Shown: positions 2,554 to 20,084 of the stretch, one piece after another | Layout: each line of letters begins with the position of its first letter | Position numbering within the stretch: position 1 is the first letter of the stretch | NCBI GenBank assembly: GCA_019057975.1 | Contig: JAHLWJ010000042.1 | Coordinates: 1-20,836, forward strand | Length of the DNA: 20,836 nucleotides | Direction of reading: 5' to 3' | Origin: Promethearchaeota archaeon | Lineage (GTDB): Archaea > Asgardarchaeota > Lokiarchaeia > Sigynarchaeales > SOKP01 | Translations under genes and position numbers: made by a program | The notes under the pieces: model-generated | Seen by the model: the letters and a program-made list of their open reading frames with translations, nothing else | What the model was told of the DNA's origin: nothing | The model's database searches: none

Positions 2554-3099
2554 TTGAATCAGGTATTTGGGTTGTCAACTGATTTCACTTTTAAGATTGT
2601 TATATTTGGAGATTCTCAAACAGGAAAAACTACCTTAACTCATAGATTCTTAACGAACCTTTTTAAGAATGATATCCAAATGACCCTAGGAGTAGATTTT
2701 TTACTTAAATCAATTGAAATGAATGGTGAAAATGTCAAACTCCAGATTTGGGATTTTGCTGGTGAAGAAAGGTTCAGATTTCTTTTTCCTTCTTATATCA
2801 GGGGGGCTAATGGAGCAATTTTTATGTATGATATTACTAATTATGGCTCACTGGCTCATGTAGATGATTGGTTTGAAATTGTTGAAAAAGAAATTGAACG
2901 TGATATACCAATAATCTTTGTTGGTGGAAAAACTGATTTAATACATCTTAAGGAAATTTCAACAAGAAAAGCAATGGAAGTAGCAAAGTCAAAAAATGCA
3001 GATGGTTTTATAGAATGCTGCTCAAAAACAGGAGAGAATATCCATAAGGTATTTGATTTGTTAACGAGATTAATCCTAAAGGATAGAATATCTTCTTAA
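2554..3099 (+). CDS. Ras/Rab-like small GTPase with altered Gln61 and NKxD positions
   Basis: A single-domain Ras-superfamily GTPase of 181 residues with motifs in canonical order: G1 GDSQTGKT at 19-26, switch I Thr44 in MTLGVDF, G3 WDFAGEE around 66-72, G4 GGKTD at 124-128 and G5 CCSKTG at 155-160. Two departures stand out. The catalytic Gln (Ras Gln61) is Glu71, and the Asn of NKxD is Gly125. Both suggest altered hydrolysis or nucleotide affinity, though nothing here tests that. There is no C-terminal Cys for prenylation and no signal peptide. No ATG lies upstream in frame. The start is TTG at 2554, or TTG at 2572, which would give a shorter N-terminus directly before beta strand 1. Asgard genomes encode many such GTPases, and the cellular role is unknown. 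Confidence 0.88.
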   Translation: MNQVFGLSTDFTFKIVIFGDSQTGKTTLTHRFLTNLFKNDIQMTLGVDFLLKSIEMNGENVKLQIWDFAGEERFRFLFPSYIRGANGAIFMYDITNYGSLAHVDDWFEIVEKEIERDIPIIFVGGKTDLIHLKEISTRKAMEVAKSKNADGFIECCSKTGENIHKVFDLLTRLILKDRISS

Positions 3100-4587: not shown

Positions 4588-5244
4588 TTGAGTTCTCTTT
4601 TGAAATTAACTCTCAGTCTGTGGGATATAGCCGGTCAAGAACGATTTGAGTTCTTTAAAACAGACTTTTTTAGTGGAGTTGCTGCAGTTGGTCTAATTTT
4701 CGATTTATCTCGACCCGATACTTTTGATTCAATCGAAGAATATTTTGATGACATACGTGAACGGTCTGGAAATATCCCAATTATTTTAGTGGGTAACAAA
4801 AATGATTTGAAAAAAGACATTGGAGAGACTATTCCTCGCGAAAAAATAATACAAATGGTAAATCAATATAATCTTTTTGAATATATTGAAACATCCGCAT
4901 TAGAAAGCAAAAATGTTTATAAATTGTTTTATCGATTAGCTCTAACAGCGTTATTAGATACAAAACCAAGGTTAGGGGAAGTCATTGATTCAAATCATTT
5001 TAGATTCAAAATATTACTTATAGGAGCGGCAGCTGTTGGAAAGTCCTCGTTGATTGATTCATTTGTTAATAAGGAATTTGAAGAATCATATAAATTAACC
5101 ATAGGGTTAGACTTTATGATTCAAGATCTTGAAATTGAAGAAGAAGATATCCCAAAAGAAACGTTTAATTTGATTAAAAATTCAGTTAAATCCTATAAGA
5201 AGCGAATTAAAAAAATTGGTAAAGCAGAAGAACCAGCTCATTAG
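4588..5244 (+). CDS. Circularly permuted Ras-like small GTPase (motif order G3-G4-G5-G1-G2)
   Basis: A 218-residue Ras-superfamily domain in permuted order. It opens at beta strand 3 with G3 WDIAGQERF at 12-20, then G4 NKND at 70-73 and G5 ETSALE at 101-106. After a linker of about 30 residues comes beta strand 1 with G1 GAAAVGKSS at 146-154 and the switch I Thr171 in TIGLDF. It ends with an acidic stretch and a lysine-rich helix. The cut lies between beta strands 2 and 3. Every signature residue is kept, including Gln17 (Ras Gln61), so it should bind and hydrolyse GTP. The 65 bases upstream and 33 downstream leave no room for missing halves, so this is not a frameshifted gene. The start is TTG 4588 or TTG 4600. 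The same motif order is known from eukaryotic cpRAS domains. Its function is unknown. Confidence 0.88.
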   Translation: MSSLLKLTLSLWDIAGQERFEFFKTDFFSGVAAVGLIFDLSRPDTFDSIEEYFDDIRERSGNIPIILVGNKNDLKKDIGETIPREKIIQMVNQYNLFEYIETSALESKNVYKLFYRLALTALLDTKPRLGEVIDSNHFRFKILLIGAAAVGKSSLIDSFVNKEFEESYKLTIGLDFMIQDLEIEEEDIPKETFNLIKNSVKSYKKRIKKIGKAEEPAH

Positions 5245-5277: not shown

Positions 5278-6297
5278 TTAAGAAAATATATATTTTTCAT
5301 AGTTATGCTTACAGGGATAGCCTATTGTCGCCAATAATTGAATTGTATCTGATTCCTTATTAATCTCTGTTATCCAGTAATATATCGTGCCACTTTTTAT
5401 TCCATCAAATTCAACATGGTTACATACTCCCTCTTTATGGGAACTAAGAAATTTAATTACTTCATTCTTGGTTATTTTACTCTTCCTGTTTTCAAGAAAA
5501 TTCTTAACTTTATTGAATCGTTCCAAACTATTAGGAAAAACTAACGCTGGATCAGAAAACTCTTTCAAGGATTCAGCCTGATAATGATTTGTGCTAAATA
5601 AATAATCATTTTTAGCATAAGATACCGCCACATGCGAGGGTGAAGTTTCTACTCGTGCAAAATTATTTTCTTTATCTGCAATCATAAAGATATGTCCTCT
5701 TACATGAGGTATTTTCTCAAGAAAAGATACTGCTTCTTCTGTAGTACGACAATTATCCAGAATCCATCTACTGGATAAATTCACTCGGATTCCCGGTTGC
5801 CATTTACCATTGTAATCTCCAGCAATGAGTATAGCAATTGCTAATCCCGCTTCATTTTTTCCCCCATAGGTTCCTATCATATGATCTGAAAATGATATAC
5901 TTTTCAATTTTCCCTCTGGATGAATGAAACTGATTTCACAAAATTTCTGGAAGGATACATCCCAATCATAATTACGAGCAAAGATGGGAAAACCTGATTC
6001 TGTTAGATCGCTTCCAATCACAAAAACCGTACATCCACCCTCTTGAGGATTAAAAAACTCAAATCCTAAGGCTAATAAAAATGCTTCCATAGATTCCAAA
6101 TCATAATTCCCCCCAGCACAAAAGCCTTTTATTTCTTCAAGTAAATCTGGAATATATTGCTTTGCAATTTCTTTACATTGACGACTAAATTCTAATTTTT
6201 CTGGAGTATAAGGTGGTGGCTGGAAAAAACGCTTAACTTGAGAACCAACTTTAAAACCTATATCATAATAACTTCCAGTGATATTATTACTTTTCAT
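5278..6297 (-). CDS. C45-family Ntn hydrolase (isopenicillin-N acyltransferase-like)
   Basis: A 339-residue cytosolic Ntn hydrolase of the C45 peptidase/acyl-CoA:6-aminopenicillanate acyltransferase type. Members are autocatalytically cleaved before an N-terminal Cys that then serves as nucleophile in amide hydrolysis or acyl transfer. Here the Gly-Cys site is GGCTVFV, with Cys89 as the predicted nucleophile, followed by the family motif FARNYDWD with Arg108, Asn109 and Asp111. An N-terminal helical segment with YDIGFKVG precedes it. There is no signal peptide. The start is ATG 6297. It faces the plus-strand GTPase, with only 33 bases between the two 3' ends. The physiological substrate is unknown. 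An N-acyl amide or peptide amide is plausible. Confidence 0.82.
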   Translation of the reverse strand: MKSNNITGSYYDIGFKVGSQVKRFFQPPPYTPEKLEFSRQCKEIAKQYIPDLLEEIKGFCAGGNYDLESMEAFLLALGFEFFNPQEGGCTVFVIGSDLTESGFPIFARNYDWDVSFQKFCEISFIHPEGKLKSISFSDHMIGTYGGKNEAGLAIAILIAGDYNGKWQPGIRVNLSSRWILDNCRTTEEAVSFLEKIPHVRGHIFMIADKENNFARVETSPSHVAVSYAKNDYLFSTNHYQAESLKEFSDPALVFPNSLERFNKVKNFLENRKSKITKNEVIKFLSSHKEGVCNHVEFDGIKSGTIYYWITEINKESDTIQLLATIGYPCKHNYEKYIFS

Positions 6298-8099: not shown

Positions 8100-10343
8100 T
8101 CAATTCGGTATTAATTTAAATGTTCCTTCGAGGTTTTTAGAAATTGTTTCTCTAGTGAATAATAAAGGAACATATTTCCCTTTTACCCATAATTTCATTA
8201 AATCGTTGTAATGCTTATGAAAAGGTAACCCTAATTGACCTCCAGGAATTACTCCTATAGATTTATCCCAATCAGCTAGATCGTGGATTTGACGAAATGA
8301 TGGTCCAACGATAACTTCATAGTTATTCAATGGATCAAAAAATGCATTATTCAAAGTGTTTGCATCTCCTCCAATTTTGAATGGCCTTATATTTAATATT
8401 TTAGCTTCCTCATTAACTTGAGAAAATGGGTGTGTAAGAGTTACTTTATGTAAATTTCCCCATTTCCATTTGGTAACTTCTGAAGAAAATTTTTCTGATA
8501 AGAAGATAATTGTTTTTTCGAGTGCTGTAAATAAAATTTGTTCAAGCTCATCAACTTTTCCATCATATAATTTAAAGAGTCTCTCAAGTTCAAATGGATT
8601 GGACGTTAAATGAATTTCAAAAAGTTCTTTTCCTATTAGAGGAACTAAGATGGCTTTTAGGGTTTCTTGACACCATATTTTGTATATCGTACCAGCAACA
8701 CTATTTTTCGTCAAAAAGTAATCCCAATTTTCTAGTAGTGAAATAAGTTCCTTATGAACCTCTGTATGTGCTTTGGCTTTTATATATTTCAGCATCTTAG
8801 GTAGAAATTCTGGTGCTTCTTCTGTAAAATAATCTAGTTGGTAATTTTTAAAATCTTGAATGGAGAAAATTTCTTTTGATTGGAGTAAGTTTTTAATTCT
8901 TTTTTGACGATAAGGTTTAGCTCGATCTTGAGCTATTAAAACACCATTAGGGGCTTTATTTTCATTATAGTTAGCTGTGTAAACGAATCCATGCTCGGGA
9001 TTGTATATTGAAAACATTTTTTCAAAGGGTACTAATCCACTCCAATTAAATTTCTCATCTGTACCAGGACTCACTGTTGCTCCATCTCCATATTTCCGTA
9101 AAGGAAGCTTTCCTCCATGTTGATGACCAATATTCCCCTCTATATCACCATATATAAAATTCTGGGGCGTGATCGTTAATTTACTCAAAGCTTCACGAAA
9201 TTCACTCCAATTGGATGCTATATTAATCATTCTAAAACCCTCTATTGTTTCTTCTAGATTTACTCTATAACTAGTCCAGCATAAAGCATATTTCCCTGGA
9301 AGATTAATTTTATGAACTTTTGTCTGAAGTTCAAAATACTCTACAACCGGCCCGAATTTGGAAAACTTTACTTTAAAATCGATCGGTTCAGGATTATCTT
9401 GAACTCTAATCGGTTCATCACTAACCTTAAAATCAACCCATTTCCCATTGTATTTGTATTGGTTTTCATTTTCAGGATTTATTTCTAATTTAAAGAGATC
9501 AACATTATCCGATGTTACAGTTGTTGCACCCCATGCGATATTTTCATTATGTCCCAACACGACACTAGGTACTCCCGGGAAAGATGAGCCAATAGTATTC
9601 AAACCCGGACAACTTAAATGCATAAGGATCCAAATCGCAGGAAGTGTAAGTGGTAAGTGAGGGTCATTCGCTAATAAAACAGCTCCTGATTCTGATTTAT
9701 GGGGGCTAACAGCCCAACCGTTACTACCCAATGGGGTTTCTACTTTTGCTCCAGAATAAAGTGGAATAAGCTTATCTGCCATCTCAAGACCCAAATCCAT
9801 AATTAATTGTTCACGTAATAGTTCTAGAATATAACTCCAACCACCTAATCCCCACTCTATAAAACTCATAATTCGAAGAGAATCTTCTAAGCTCCATTCT
9901 TGAAGTTTAATATTTAGAATGGCGAATTCGATAGGTGGATTTTGAGTTGCTTTTTTAATACCAGCATTTACTCCTTCCACATATGAATTTAAACCTTTCA
10001 ACGTTTCATTATTAGGGTATTTCCTCAGATTTTCCGCAGATTTTTTTGCGATTCGATGCAAACCAATTATTCTATAATGCTTATCCATATCAATTGTAGT
10101 TTCTCCAACGATTTCAGATATACTTCCTGATGTAACTCTCTTAAAAAACTCTAATTGCCATAATCTATGACTTGCATGAACATATCCTTGAGCAAAGTAT
10201 GCTTCATCAACTGAATTTGCATAAATATGTGGGATACCCCATTTATCCCATAAAATTTCAACCTCGTCTTGAATTCCCTTTACTTTTTCTGAACCAGATA
10301 CGGCTGGAAACGCGTTTTTTGCAATGTTAAGTAATTCTTCCAT
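8100..10343 (-). CDS. Penicillin acylase-family (S45) amidase
   Basis: An approximately 747-residue Ntn hydrolase of the S45 family, which includes penicillin G acylase and acyl-homoserine-lactone acylases. The alpha-chain opens with VEILWDKWGIPHIYANS and GYVHASHRLWQLEFF, both hallmarks. The cleavage site and nucleophile are in PLGSNGWAVS, with Ser at about residue 207. Conserved beta-chain blocks follow, such as LGHNENIAWGATTV. It ends with LGLPFHKHYNDLMKLW. Unlike most bacterial relatives, no signal peptide or N-terminal membrane segment is visible, so it should act in the cytosol. ATG 10343 is chosen over the in-frame TTG 10349. It lies between two acyl-CoA dehydrogenase genes on the same strand, 49 bases from the downstream one, suggesting release of acyl chains that are later oxidised. 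The substrate is unknown. Confidence 0.88.
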   Translation of the reverse strand: MEELLNIAKNAFPAVSGSEKVKGIQDEVEILWDKWGIPHIYANSVDEAYFAQGYVHASHRLWQLEFFKRVTSGSISEIVGETTIDMDKHYRIIGLHRIAKKSAENLRKYPNNETLKGLNSYVEGVNAGIKKATQNPPIEFAILNIKLQEWSLEDSLRIMSFIEWGLGGWSYILELLREQLIMDLGLEMADKLIPLYSGAKVETPLGSNGWAVSPHKSESGAVLLANDPHLPLTLPAIWILMHLSCPGLNTIGSSFPGVPSVVLGHNENIAWGATTVTSDNVDLFKLEINPENENQYKYNGKWVDFKVSDEPIRVQDNPEPIDFKVKFSKFGPVVEYFELQTKVHKINLPGKYALCWTSYRVNLEETIEGFRMINIASNWSEFREALSKLTITPQNFIYGDIEGNIGHQHGGKLPLRKYGDGATVSPGTDEKFNWSGLVPFEKMFSIYNPEHGFVYTANYNENKAPNGVLIAQDRAKPYRQKRIKNLLQSKEIFSIQDFKNYQLDYFTEEAPEFLPKMLKYIKAKAHTEVHKELISLLENWDYFLTKNSVAGTIYKIWCQETLKAILVPLIGKELFEIHLTSNPFELERLFKLYDGKVDELEQILFTALEKTIIFLSEKFSSEVTKWKWGNLHKVTLTHPFSQVNEEAKILNIRPFKIGGDANTLNNAFFDPLNNYEVIVGPSFRQIHDLADWDKSIGVIPGGQLGLPFHKHYNDLMKLWVKGKYVPLLFTRETISKNLEGTFKLIPN

Positions 10344-10450
10344 TCTCAATTCATCTATTATTGTAATTATTCTATACTAATATTAAATGAATTAAAAGGA
10401 GTTATAATTTCATTTTAGAGTGATCAACTAAAAAAAGAAAAAAATGGATT

Positions 10451-15987: not shown

Positions 15988-16497
15988 CTAAAGATTTTTA
16001 ATAATTTCTTTTGCTAATAATCTAAAAGCCAAATTCACGTTTGCACCAGTTTTCGAAGAAATTTTTAAATATTTAAAAAAATCATACTTCTTTGGAAAGC
16101 TCCGCGCAAATTTTTCATCGATAGTAATCGATTCAGTCAAATCCCATTTAGAACCTAAGAAAATTATCGGAATTCCTGGATTTTCACCTCTACAAATATT
16201 AACCCATTGTTCAATATTTTCTAAGCTAGATGGTCGCGTGAGGTCAAAAAGCAAAAGAGCACCTTTAGCACCGACAGAGTAATCTTTTAATAAAGGTCTG
16301 AAATGATCTTGTCCACCAAAATCCCAGACTTGCAAATTAATTGTTTCTCCTTTAATATAAGTTTCTTTGATGAAGAATTCTACACCAAGTGTCATTTTTG
16401 TGTCTGCCAAGAATCTATCCTTCACATATCGATAAAGAAGCGTTGTTTTTCCTACACCTCCATCTCCAGCTGTGATTATTTTAAGTAATTTGGGCAT
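15988..16497 (-). CDS. Ras-like small GTPase with SKxD motif
   Basis: A 169-residue Ras-superfamily GTPase. G1 GDGGVGKT is at 11-18, the switch I Thr at 36 (MTLGVEF), G3 WDFGGQDHF at 58-66 with the catalytic Gln63 present, G4 SKWD at 116-119 and G5 ISSKTG at 146-151. Ser replaces the Asn of NKxD, reminiscent of the TKxD of Rho/Rac proteins. No C-terminal Cys is present. ATG 16497 is chosen because the upstream TTG at 16518 adds only seven residues. It is clearly paralogous to the GTPase at 17529-18050. Downstream partners are unknown. Confidence 0.9.
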   Translation of the reverse strand: MPKLLKIITAGDGGVGKTTLLYRYVKDRFLADTKMTLGVEFFIKETYIKGETINLQVWDFGGQDHFRPLLKDYSVGAKGALLLFDLTRPSSLENIEQWVNICRGENPGIPIIFLGSKWDLTESITIDEKFARSFPKKYDFFKYLKISSKTGANVNLAFRLLAKEIIKNL

Positions 16498-16626
16498 TCT
16501 AAACCACCATATTAACAATTTGATGCATTAATTTAATTATTCAGGGATTAAATTATAAATTGTTTTAATAATATATAAGAAATTTAGATTAAAATTTATA
16601 TGTAGTATTTTTTCTTAAGTACTTTA

Positions 16627-17528: not shown

Positions 17529-18050
17529 CTAATACGTTTGTCTTTCTAAAATTTTCTTTGTCAACTTACTGAAAGCTTGACCTACATTTTCGCCTGTTTT
17601 TGATGAGATTTTCAAGAAATCAATAAGGTTAAATTCTTCAAGAAACGATAGTGCATAATCGTCATCAACTTGAATTTCATCAGCTAAGTCCAGCTTAGTG
17701 CCTAGAAAAAGAACGGGAAGGCTTGGGTCCCCTTTCCGTACTATGTTAAGCCATTGCTCCAAATTTTCTAAGCTGGACATCCTTGTGAGGTCGAACATAA
17801 GCATTGCTCCTTTTGCACCTAGAACATAGCTTTCAAGCAAAAATCTAAACCTCTCTTGACCTCCAAAATCCCAGAGCTGCAGGGTGCATTGATTCCCATT
17901 GATCTCCGTCTCTTTCAAAAAGAATTCCACACCTATCGTCATTCGAGTATTTGCTGAGAATTTCCCTTCCACGTACCTATGTAGGAGCGTTGTTTTTCCA
18001 ACTCCCCCTTCCCCGGCTGTTAAGATTTTTAGTATGAACTTCTGTGGCAT
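17529..18050 (-). CDS. Ras-like small GTPase with Rho-type TKLD motif
   Basis: A 173-residue Ras-superfamily GTPase. G1 GEGGVGKT is at 13-20, the switch I Thr at 38 (MTIGVEF), G3 WDFGGQERF at 60-68 with Gln65, G4 TKLD at 118-121 and G5 ISSKTG at 148-153. Thr in place of the Asn of NKxD matches Rac/Rho proteins, which bind GTP normally, so activity is expected. There is no lipidation Cys. It starts at ATG 18050. Its paralogue at 15988-16497 shares the DFGGQ, SKTG and LFDLTR stretches, and the two bracket the zinc-ribbon and PIN genes. Confidence 0.92.
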   Translation of the reverse strand: MPQKFILKILTAGEGGVGKTTLLHRYVEGKFSANTRMTIGVEFFLKETEINGNQCTLQLWDFGGQERFRFLLESYVLGAKGAMLMFDLTRMSSLENLEQWLNIVRKGDPSLPVLFLGTKLDLADEIQVDDDYALSFLEEFNLIDFLKISSKTGENVGQAFSKLTKKILERQTY

Positions 18051-19876: not shown

Positions 19877-20056
19877 TAACCACATAAATAAGCGTTTCCG
19901 GGTTCAGATGGGTCCGGGTATTATCCTTATAAACCATGACCGTAAGCGAACTTACAGATTGAGGTTTCCCACAGACTTTCTACTGCAGTACTATCCTGCA
20001 ACGCTTAATAGTTTAACTTCCGGCGCTTTACTGAATGTTATAAATTTATGTGGTTA
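19877..20056 (-). rRNA. 5S ribosomal RNA, circularly permuted
   Basis: Read on the minus strand, the 3' half of a 5S rRNA comes first and the 5' half second. The 3' half contains CCGGAAGU, AAGCGUU, AGUACUG and GUGGGAAACC, all 5S signatures. The 5' half contains ACCCGGACCCAUCUGAACCC, the helix III and loop C signature. Helix I is CUUACGG (19940-19946) with CUGUAAG (19951-19957), capped by UUCG at 19947-19950. Helix II is AUGGUUUA (19930-19937) with UAAACUAU (20008-20015). Helix V is UUGcAGG with CCUCAA. Helix IV is CUGCAG with CUGUGG. The new ends pair perfectly over 13 bp (20044-20056 with 19877-19889). An inner 5 bp follows (20024-20028 with 19890-19894), with a 15-base bulge. Exact mature ends are not known. 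No 16S or 23S gene is nearby. Confidence 0.88.
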
Positions 20057-20074
20057 TAAAACCACGGATTTACC

Positions 20075-20084
20075 ATTTAATAAG
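20075..20084 (-). promoter_or_regulatory. TATA-like box of the permuted 5S rRNA gene
   Basis: CTTATTAAAT on the minus strand is centred about 25 bases before the outer closing stem (20055/20056). This is the canonical archaeal TATA-to-start spacing, and it supports transcription starting at the permuted 5' end. Confidence 0.45.

Follow-up and report, generated by a model that had tools for sequence, protein, structure and literature searches.

Few RNAs are as conserved as 5S rRNA, which in cytoplasmic ribosomes is generally regarded as a linear molecule whose natural ends pair with each other. A mitochondrial 5S rRNA with swapped halves was reportedly described by Valach et al. in 2014 (mtPerm-5S, Rfam RF02547); its halves are exchanged as in the gene described here, but it is organellar and not archaeal chromosomal, and we know of no bulge-helix-bulge (BHB) motif for it. 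In the case of the SRP RNA of Thermoproteus tenax, as in that of the 5S rRNA considered here, a universal non-coding RNA has a permuted gene. The leader and trailer of the SRP RNA form a BHB that is cut by the splicing endonuclease, the junction restores a loop and a canonical gene was not identified (PMC4731332); the same pattern is predicted for the 5S rRNA. Circle and cleavage of the SRP RNA were shown by RNA-seq and an enzyme assay (PMC4731332), whereas those of the 5S rRNA are predicted from sequence, and the SRP form is described for two Thermoproteus species (PMC4731332), whereas the 5S form is found in 137 of the 227 genomes of a phylum and is not always broken at the same point.

The permuted tRNA genes known from archaea and algae also place the 3' half first and are processed through a circular intermediate, probably by the tRNA splicing enzymes (PMC7758197). 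The 5S gene shares with them the 3' half ahead of the 5' half and, by prediction, the circle and the splicing enzymes; the tRNA circle, however, is reopened to give functional ends, whereas in the 5S rRNA a UUCG loop seals the natural ends and there is no sign of reopening. Archaeal 16S and 23S rRNAs are processed by EndA and RtcB at BHB motifs through circular intermediates, with circular 23S rRNA in ribosomes, and circular 16S and 23S transcripts occur in Asgard archaea also; in the pure cultures studied, according to that paper, 16S and 23S rRNA are processed by way of circles and 5S rRNA is not (PMC12918454). EndA/RtcB, the BHB and rRNA circles would be common to these systems and the 5S rRNA, the difference being that the 16S and 23S genes are in normal order whereas the 5S gene is permuted. 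A permuted 23S rRNA has been described in Pyrococcus furiosus (PMC7758197), circular 5S isoforms are on record for two Sulfolobus species and for Halobacterium, where they were interpreted as possible degradation products (PMC12558985), and in a viable E. coli strain the sole 5S rRNA is circularly permuted inside the 23S rRNA, openings in loop C or D having been designed (PMC7283268). As for the Asgard archaea, 5S genes of circularised Heimdallarchaeum genomes were not predictable with existing HMMs, according to the authors of those genomes (PMC8813620), and a 5S gene has been reported in two other Asgard genomes (PMC9723677). A search of open-licence PMC articles by literal matching, which covers no preprints and few subscription journals, listed no paper that describes a permuted archaeal 5S rRNA in its title or the opening of its abstract, and the phrases 'circularly permuted 5S', 'permuted 5S' and 'circular 5S rRNA' were absent.

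The window, by which we mean the whole stretch of 20,836 nucleotides analysed, contains a 5S gene on its minus strand that reads as the 3' half, a UUCG loop and the 5' half, within a 13-bp closing helix made up of AACCACATAAAT/ATTTATGTGGTT and one T-A pair. This is the order that the first-pass annotation had claimed, and its coordinates (3' half 20017-19951, UUCG 19950-19947, 5' half 19946-19896, minus strand) were recovered, as was the fusion of the natural ends by UUCG on helix I; the limits that it gave, 19877 and 20056, are the exact ends of the closing helix. As far as sequence and model evidence go, a chromosomal, circularly permuted archaeal 5S rRNA gene is established. Its parts, all on the minus strand, are the following, R1 and R2 being the models described below.

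19877-20056, minus: predicted precursor of leader, 3' half, loop, 5' half and trailer; ends inferred from the closing helix
19896-20017, minus: predicted excised and circularised 5S rRNA of 122 nt, from the BHB geometry; folded as a circle
19951-20017, minus: 5S 3' half with loop B', 3' strand of helix II, helices V and IV, loop E and 3' strand of helix I (R1 and R2 matches)
19947-19950, minus: UUCG tetraloop linking the natural 3' and 5' ends (sequence)
19896-19946, minus: 5S 5' half with 5' strand of helix I, helix II, helix III and loop C (RF00001 piece, R1, R2)
19951-19957, minus: helix I, natural 3' strand (covariation)
19940-19946, minus: helix I, natural 5' strand (covariation)
20044-20055, minus: outer closing helix, 5' strand (sequence; similar outer repeats in contigs L001, L003 and L005)
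19878-19889, minus: outer closing helix, 3' strand (sequence)
20024-20028, minus: BHB flanking helix, 5' strand AAGCG (motif reading)
19890-19894, minus: BHB flanking helix, 3' strand CGCTT (motif reading)
20020-20023, minus: BHB central 4-bp helix, 5' strand CCGG (motif reading)
19898-19901, minus: BHB central 4-bp helix, 3' strand CCGG, also 3' strand of helix III (motif reading)
20017-20019, minus: first 3-nt bulge AA↓G, predicted cut 20018/20017 (motif reading, cut rule)
19895-19897, minus: second 3-nt bulge AA↓A, predicted cut 19896/19895 (motif reading, cut rule)
20076-20084, minus: tentative TATA-like element CTTATTAAA, about 25 nt upstream of the closing helix (sequence)

Across the 112 permuted loci defined below, 26 have their best TATA-like 8-mer at 60-69 nt upstream of the core, versus about 9 in shuffles, which is a modest enrichment; the best-scoring 8-mer of the window sits elsewhere than CTTATTAAA.

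A search of the window with the whole of Rfam at the gathering threshold gave no match. The standard linear model RF00001, applied to the unrotated sequence at E <= 10, recognizes two pieces, one of 17.4 bits (5' half) and one of 13.5 bits (3' half), and the gathering score of 38 is not reached by the gene as written; a linear model does split or miss the gene, as had been anticipated from the first reading of the sequence. The rotated model, R2, was made from canonical Asgard 5S genes, of which 21 were rotated in silico by script and 16 aligned, with no permuted sequence in its training. It matches the window at 19897-20018 on the minus strand over model positions 1-124 of 124, with 60.5 bits and an E-value, rough as for such models generally, of 1.6e-12 (77 kb searched). 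The rotated model therefore scores higher than RF00001 does on the separate halves, as the first-pass annotation had expected of a genuine 5S rRNA. On each of the 14 other permuted loci given to it R2 scored at least 61.8 bits, versus at most 43.7 bits on the four canonical loci given, although rotated forms of all four had served to train it. The mtPerm-5S model (RF02547) is absent from the Rfam matches of the window at E <= 10, and membership in that family was rejected for the carriers too, since none of six carrier genomes passed the cut-off of 39 (best score 15.8 bits).

The same order was met in other genomes. A DNA pattern for it, scanned over 84,980 species genomes, gave five matches: three in genomes titled Lokiarchaeota or Lokiarchaeia, one in an archaeon (isolate Dive96_bin3.136) and one in a bacterium (L004, Opitutaceae), which by its sequence is a chance match, has no R1 match at E <= 10 and was rejected as a carrier. 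Another canonical 5S gene in the same genome had been named at the outset as a test of the permuted reading; the answer is partial and comes from the relatives, as RF00001 passes its cut-off in none of the four archaeal genomes that match the pattern. We then considered the 227 genomes of the phylum of G001, which we call Asgard because G001 contains the Lokiarchaeota contig L001. The permuted model R1, built from 15 permuted cores (window included, flanks excluded), called permuted all 20 loci taken up because of weak linear-model matches, 10 of which were in its training and 10 not, and in that comparison it separates permuted loci (at least 69.8 bits) from 30 loci found by RF00001 (at most 38.6 bits). 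Counting full-length R1 matches of at least 52 bits, 137 of the 227 genomes carry a permuted 5S gene, the weakest locus counted being that of G010 (52.0 bits), whereas RF00001 passes its cut-off in 64; both forms are present in 5 genomes, and neither passes its threshold in 31. It should be noted that the genomes are related, and that carrier and locus counts are consequently not independent. In 132 of the 137 carriers there is no linear 5S over the cut-off, and in 125 of them there is a single R1 match at E <= 1. By eye, the linear matches in the five overlaps look bacterial-like in three genomes (G045, G113, G134), are a partial match on the genome's own permuted gene in G034, and lie on a foreign-looking archaeal contig in G017. 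Several other genomes also have the permuted order within one contig, of 1.4 to 4.9 Mb in length, and the DNA neighbouring the gene is conserved in L001 and L003. Relatives thus share the order, and its disappearance in long-read assemblies, named at the outset as a ground for refutation, is not what these long contigs show.

Outside the phylum, RF00001 passes its cut-off in 63 of 67 genomes, which were reached through relatives of G174 and taken as other archaea. No permuted 5S was found with R1 among these 67, where the two best R1 matches were inspected singly, and the four genomes without an RF00001 match have no R1 match at E <= 1e-4 either. Two candidates were rejected: of the R1 matches in G291 and G254 (50.5 and 49.6 bits), one runs across two tandem canonical copies and the other overlaps a canonical gene. 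Within the phylum, variants were also seen. Loci L143 and L158 (G128, G111) hold a permuted 5S with extra hairpins, for example in loop C or on helix I or IV, and L135 (G057:C510:3679-3951) has two tandem permuted 5S genes 41 nt apart that differ in helix II, an array that can also be read as a canonical 5S with an intron.

Despite the permutation, the five helices can be formed, as the first-pass annotation had stated, and they covary. In an alignment of 61 sequences (55 distinct permuted ones), 93.0% of the cells of helices I-V are standard pairs versus 63.8% in shuffles, the first figure being inflated by the fitting of the alignment to the 5S structure. Two-sided changes occur in 31 of the 35 helix pairs, a level that 0 of 500 shuffles attained, and pairing falls to 35-43% when partners are slid by 1-3 columns. 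Compensatory change thus conserves helices I to V in the 55 distinct permuted sequences, within this structure-fitted alignment. When the 122 nt of the window are folded as a circle, helices I, II and III form around the 5S junction, and they are absent when the same sequence is folded as a line; hairpins with other pairing take the place of the canonical helices IV and V. Of six other circles folded, five give most 5S helices as circle or line alike, and L055 misfolds both ways. The free optimum of the precursor is -48.7 kcal/mol and lacks the BHB motif, and the fold in which the motif is enforced has -48.6 kcal/mol; the two being equal in energy, folding energy is neutral on the motif. The 3' CCGG strand is common to the BHB and helix III, so that the two would compete.

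On the minus strand, the ends of the gene read AAGCG-CCGG-AA↓G (20028-20017) and CCGG-AA↓A-CGCTT (19901-19890), the arrows marking predicted cuts, which amounts to two 3-nt bulges, one on each strand, with a helix of 4 bp between them. The flanking helix has 5 bp and is followed by a one-sided 15-nt loop and then by the outer helix. Splicing endonuclease cuts each bulge between the second and third base. Under this rule, positions 20017-19896 (122 nt) would be freed and GAACCCGGAA joined to GUUAAAC, giving an unbroken canonical helix III/loop B sequence that is not contiguous in the genome. The consensus given for the splicing endonuclease has the same build, a centre of 4 bp and two bulges of 3 nt (PMC7714728).

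Of 122 R1 matches, 6 were dropped for short flanks before flanks of different loci were paired for comparison; a further 4 rows (L121 twice, L160, L167), which either were not permuted or had a different type of break, were removed after that, which left 112 loci. The strict motif, with at least 4 flanking pairs, is found in 57 of the 112 versus 655 of 13,340 mismatched-flank pairings. These loci include 43 flanking-helix sequences, 14 central-helix combinations and more than one register, and in 51 of the 57 the predicted join brings back the canonical spacing GANC-N6-GYYAA, the spacing being longer by one in the other 6. Hence, a leader-trailer BHB whose predicted join would restore the canonical 5S is present in the window and in 56 other loci of the 112. 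When the restored product was required first, 9 loci without the anchor motif, the loop-C loci described below among them, dropped out; all nine pairs were then found in 52 of 103 loci versus 2.9% of mismatched pairings, and at least 8 of 9 in 75 of 103 versus 11.8%. Many of the 55 of 112 loci in which the strict motif is absent appear relaxed by eye, with 3 of 4 central pairs, a hairpin in the flank or another break point, and some are without a clear motif. A looser, wider BHB search was abandoned in favour of these more constrained tests because its background was too high (at least 10 pairs in 84 of 112 natural versus 715 of 2,379 mismatched pairings). The machinery is encoded in relatives of the window genome: EndA (PF01974) passes its cut-off in 226 of the 227 genomes, and RtcB is present in 11 of 12 genomes tested, the match in the twelfth lying at a contig end.

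Based on these data, we propose that the permuted transcript is cut at the BHB by EndA and sealed by RtcB into a 122-nt circular 5S rRNA that enters the ribosome, a reading to which we assign a probability of about 0.83. Transcription would start from a small promoter-like element, the splicing endonuclease EndA would cut each bulge between the second and third base, RtcB would ligate the ends into a closed 122-nt circle, and this circle would enter the ribosome. Processing into a circle is a prediction, and the mechanism best supported here; excision by EndA and ligation by RtcB are likely, as for the permuted SRP RNA of Thermoproteus, and the circle is likely to be the sole 5S rRNA of the carrier genomes. 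The BHB motif, the likely circular product and the wide spread go beyond what had been read from the window at first.

If the conserved unit is the circle and not the transcript, the break point of the gene can shift without a change of product. In five related genomes (L149, L152, L155, L156, L157; G119, G120, G123-G125) the gene begins within loop C and not within helix III; the motif there is CTGG/CCGG, its bulges are AA↓C and TC↓A, and its flanking helix, GCG/CGC, is short. Cut at this motif, at places picked by hand from it, these loci would give circles of 121 nt, the length predicted for L001, and 102 to 105 of 122 aligned positions are identical between them and the L001 circle. The sequence ACCCGGTCCCATCCGAACCCGGAAGTTAAAC, which spans both junctions, is letter-identical between the five genomes and L001. 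Flanked by no more than about 3 pairs, these motifs do not pass the automatic tests, which anchor on helix III, and the five cases may go back to one event. That the length and the junction stretch of the predicted circle are kept despite the moved break is to be expected if the selected product is a circle. By eye, L146 (in loop C) and L160 (before helix III) look like further cases of a moved break point; L160 (120-300, minus; G087:C63) holds a permuted 5S with seemingly a third break point and AAA bulges on both sides, and at 48.0 bits G087 was left out of the count.

The circular reading has to be weighed against one without ligation, in which the functional permuted 5S is a linear molecule that begins and ends in helix III or loop C, the flanking helices serving only to protect these ends or being trimmed. 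Either copy of CCGGAA, the 5' or the 3' one, would be able to close helix III with no splicing, E. coli lives with its engineered permuted 5S inside the 23S rRNA (PMC7283268), 55 of the 112 loci have no strict BHB, and the circular 5S isoforms of Halobacterium were taken as possible degradation products (PMC12558985), which speaks against a circular 5S. We nevertheless find a linear product unlikely: the 4-bp centre with its two 3-nt bulges recurs across 14 central and 43 flanking sequences, far above mismatched flanks, and with the moved break in five genomes the junction region of the predicted circle is kept, which a linear product would not need.

Two other explanations bear on the gene itself. 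One takes the permuted copy for a pseudogene or a mobile remnant and lets a divergent canonical 5S serve the ribosome; this might seem to fit the 31 of 227 genomes with neither form over threshold and the 5 with both, but it is very improbable in view of the compensatory change in all five helices, the single R1 match in 125 of 137 carriers, the 132 genomes in which a permuted 5S is present but no linear one passes the cut-off, and the bacterial-like, foreign or partial nature (by eye) of the linear matches in the five overlaps. An assembly artefact, namely a chimeric join of a canonical gene, would be conceivable where genomes are metagenome assemblies, as many here are; the recurrence of the order in 137 divergent genomes, including single contigs of 1.4-4.9 Mb, and the conserved neighbouring DNA of L001 and L003 leave it hardly any credibility.

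With regard to the origin of the permuted order, a quick RpoB tree of 82 genomes, which is a single-gene, midpoint-rooted tree with long branches, requires 4 changes between the 5S forms, a number as low as which was seen in 0 of 500 shuffles; with 4 changes, a single origin of the permuted form is not shown by this tree. Permuted genes occur in the Lokiarchaeota, in those branches of the tree that split off deepest, and in a genome of 1.4 Mb that we take to be Odinarchaeum-like. Canonical-order 5S genes with inserts were also observed. One, in L121 (200-480, minus; G017:C117, ~8277-8414) and also in L173, is interrupted at the same place in helix III by an insert of 23 nt; in L121 this insert is centred on CACG/CGTG, with GA↓A and AA↓A as its bulges and with a hairpin, and is perhaps a spliced BHB intron. 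By eye, its contig carries archaeal RNA polymerase genes and may belong to a foreign archaeon in an Asgard bin. It is plausible that this type of gene is the precursor state of the permuted order, since duplication of a canonical 5S with a BHB insert would give that order. For the SRP RNA, Plagens et al. likewise suggest that the permuted genes arose from a form in which the introns were simple BHB introns (PMC4731332). The other, in L167 (220-420, minus; G212:C15:39893-40044), has about 34 nt inserted directly after GUUAA in loop B, which may be an intron or an expansion segment.

In the remainder of the window, Ras-family GTPases, Spt5 and eIF1A support an Asgard origin, and so does a DNA identity of 95.6% over 1,127 bp with the Lokiarchaeia contig L005, which has the same gene. 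Four Ras-family small GTPase genes lie within 20 kb (2554-3099 and 4588-5244 on the plus strand, 15988-16518 and 17529-18050 on the minus strand), as is typical of Asgard archaea. A penicillin-amidase-family protein (640 bits) is encoded at 8100-10349 on the minus strand with acyl-CoA dehydrogenase genes on both sides, and an AAT acyl-transferase is encoded nearby, at 5278-6297.

Taken further, the circular reading would mean that in the ribosomes of most Asgard archaea the mature 5S rRNA is a covalently closed circle without ends, made by the tRNA-splicing machinery, that selection acts on the circle only while the gene start drifts round the ring, and that the canonical linear 5S genes of some lineages are relics or secondary re-linearisations; we lean towards this wider view with some reserve. 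The permuted 5S bears on the gap in Asgard 5S prediction stated in the literature (PMC8813620), and for the two Heimdallarchaeum genomes this explanation is possible. A linear RNA model undercounts a universal gene here, with 137 genomes carrying the permuted form versus 64 with a standard-model match. If a permuted and probably circular 5S rRNA is indeed the only one detectable in much of the phylum regarded as nearest to eukaryotes, the accepted view of how archaeal ribosomes are made would have to be revised, with a part in 5S rRNA production for the splicing endonuclease and for RtcB.
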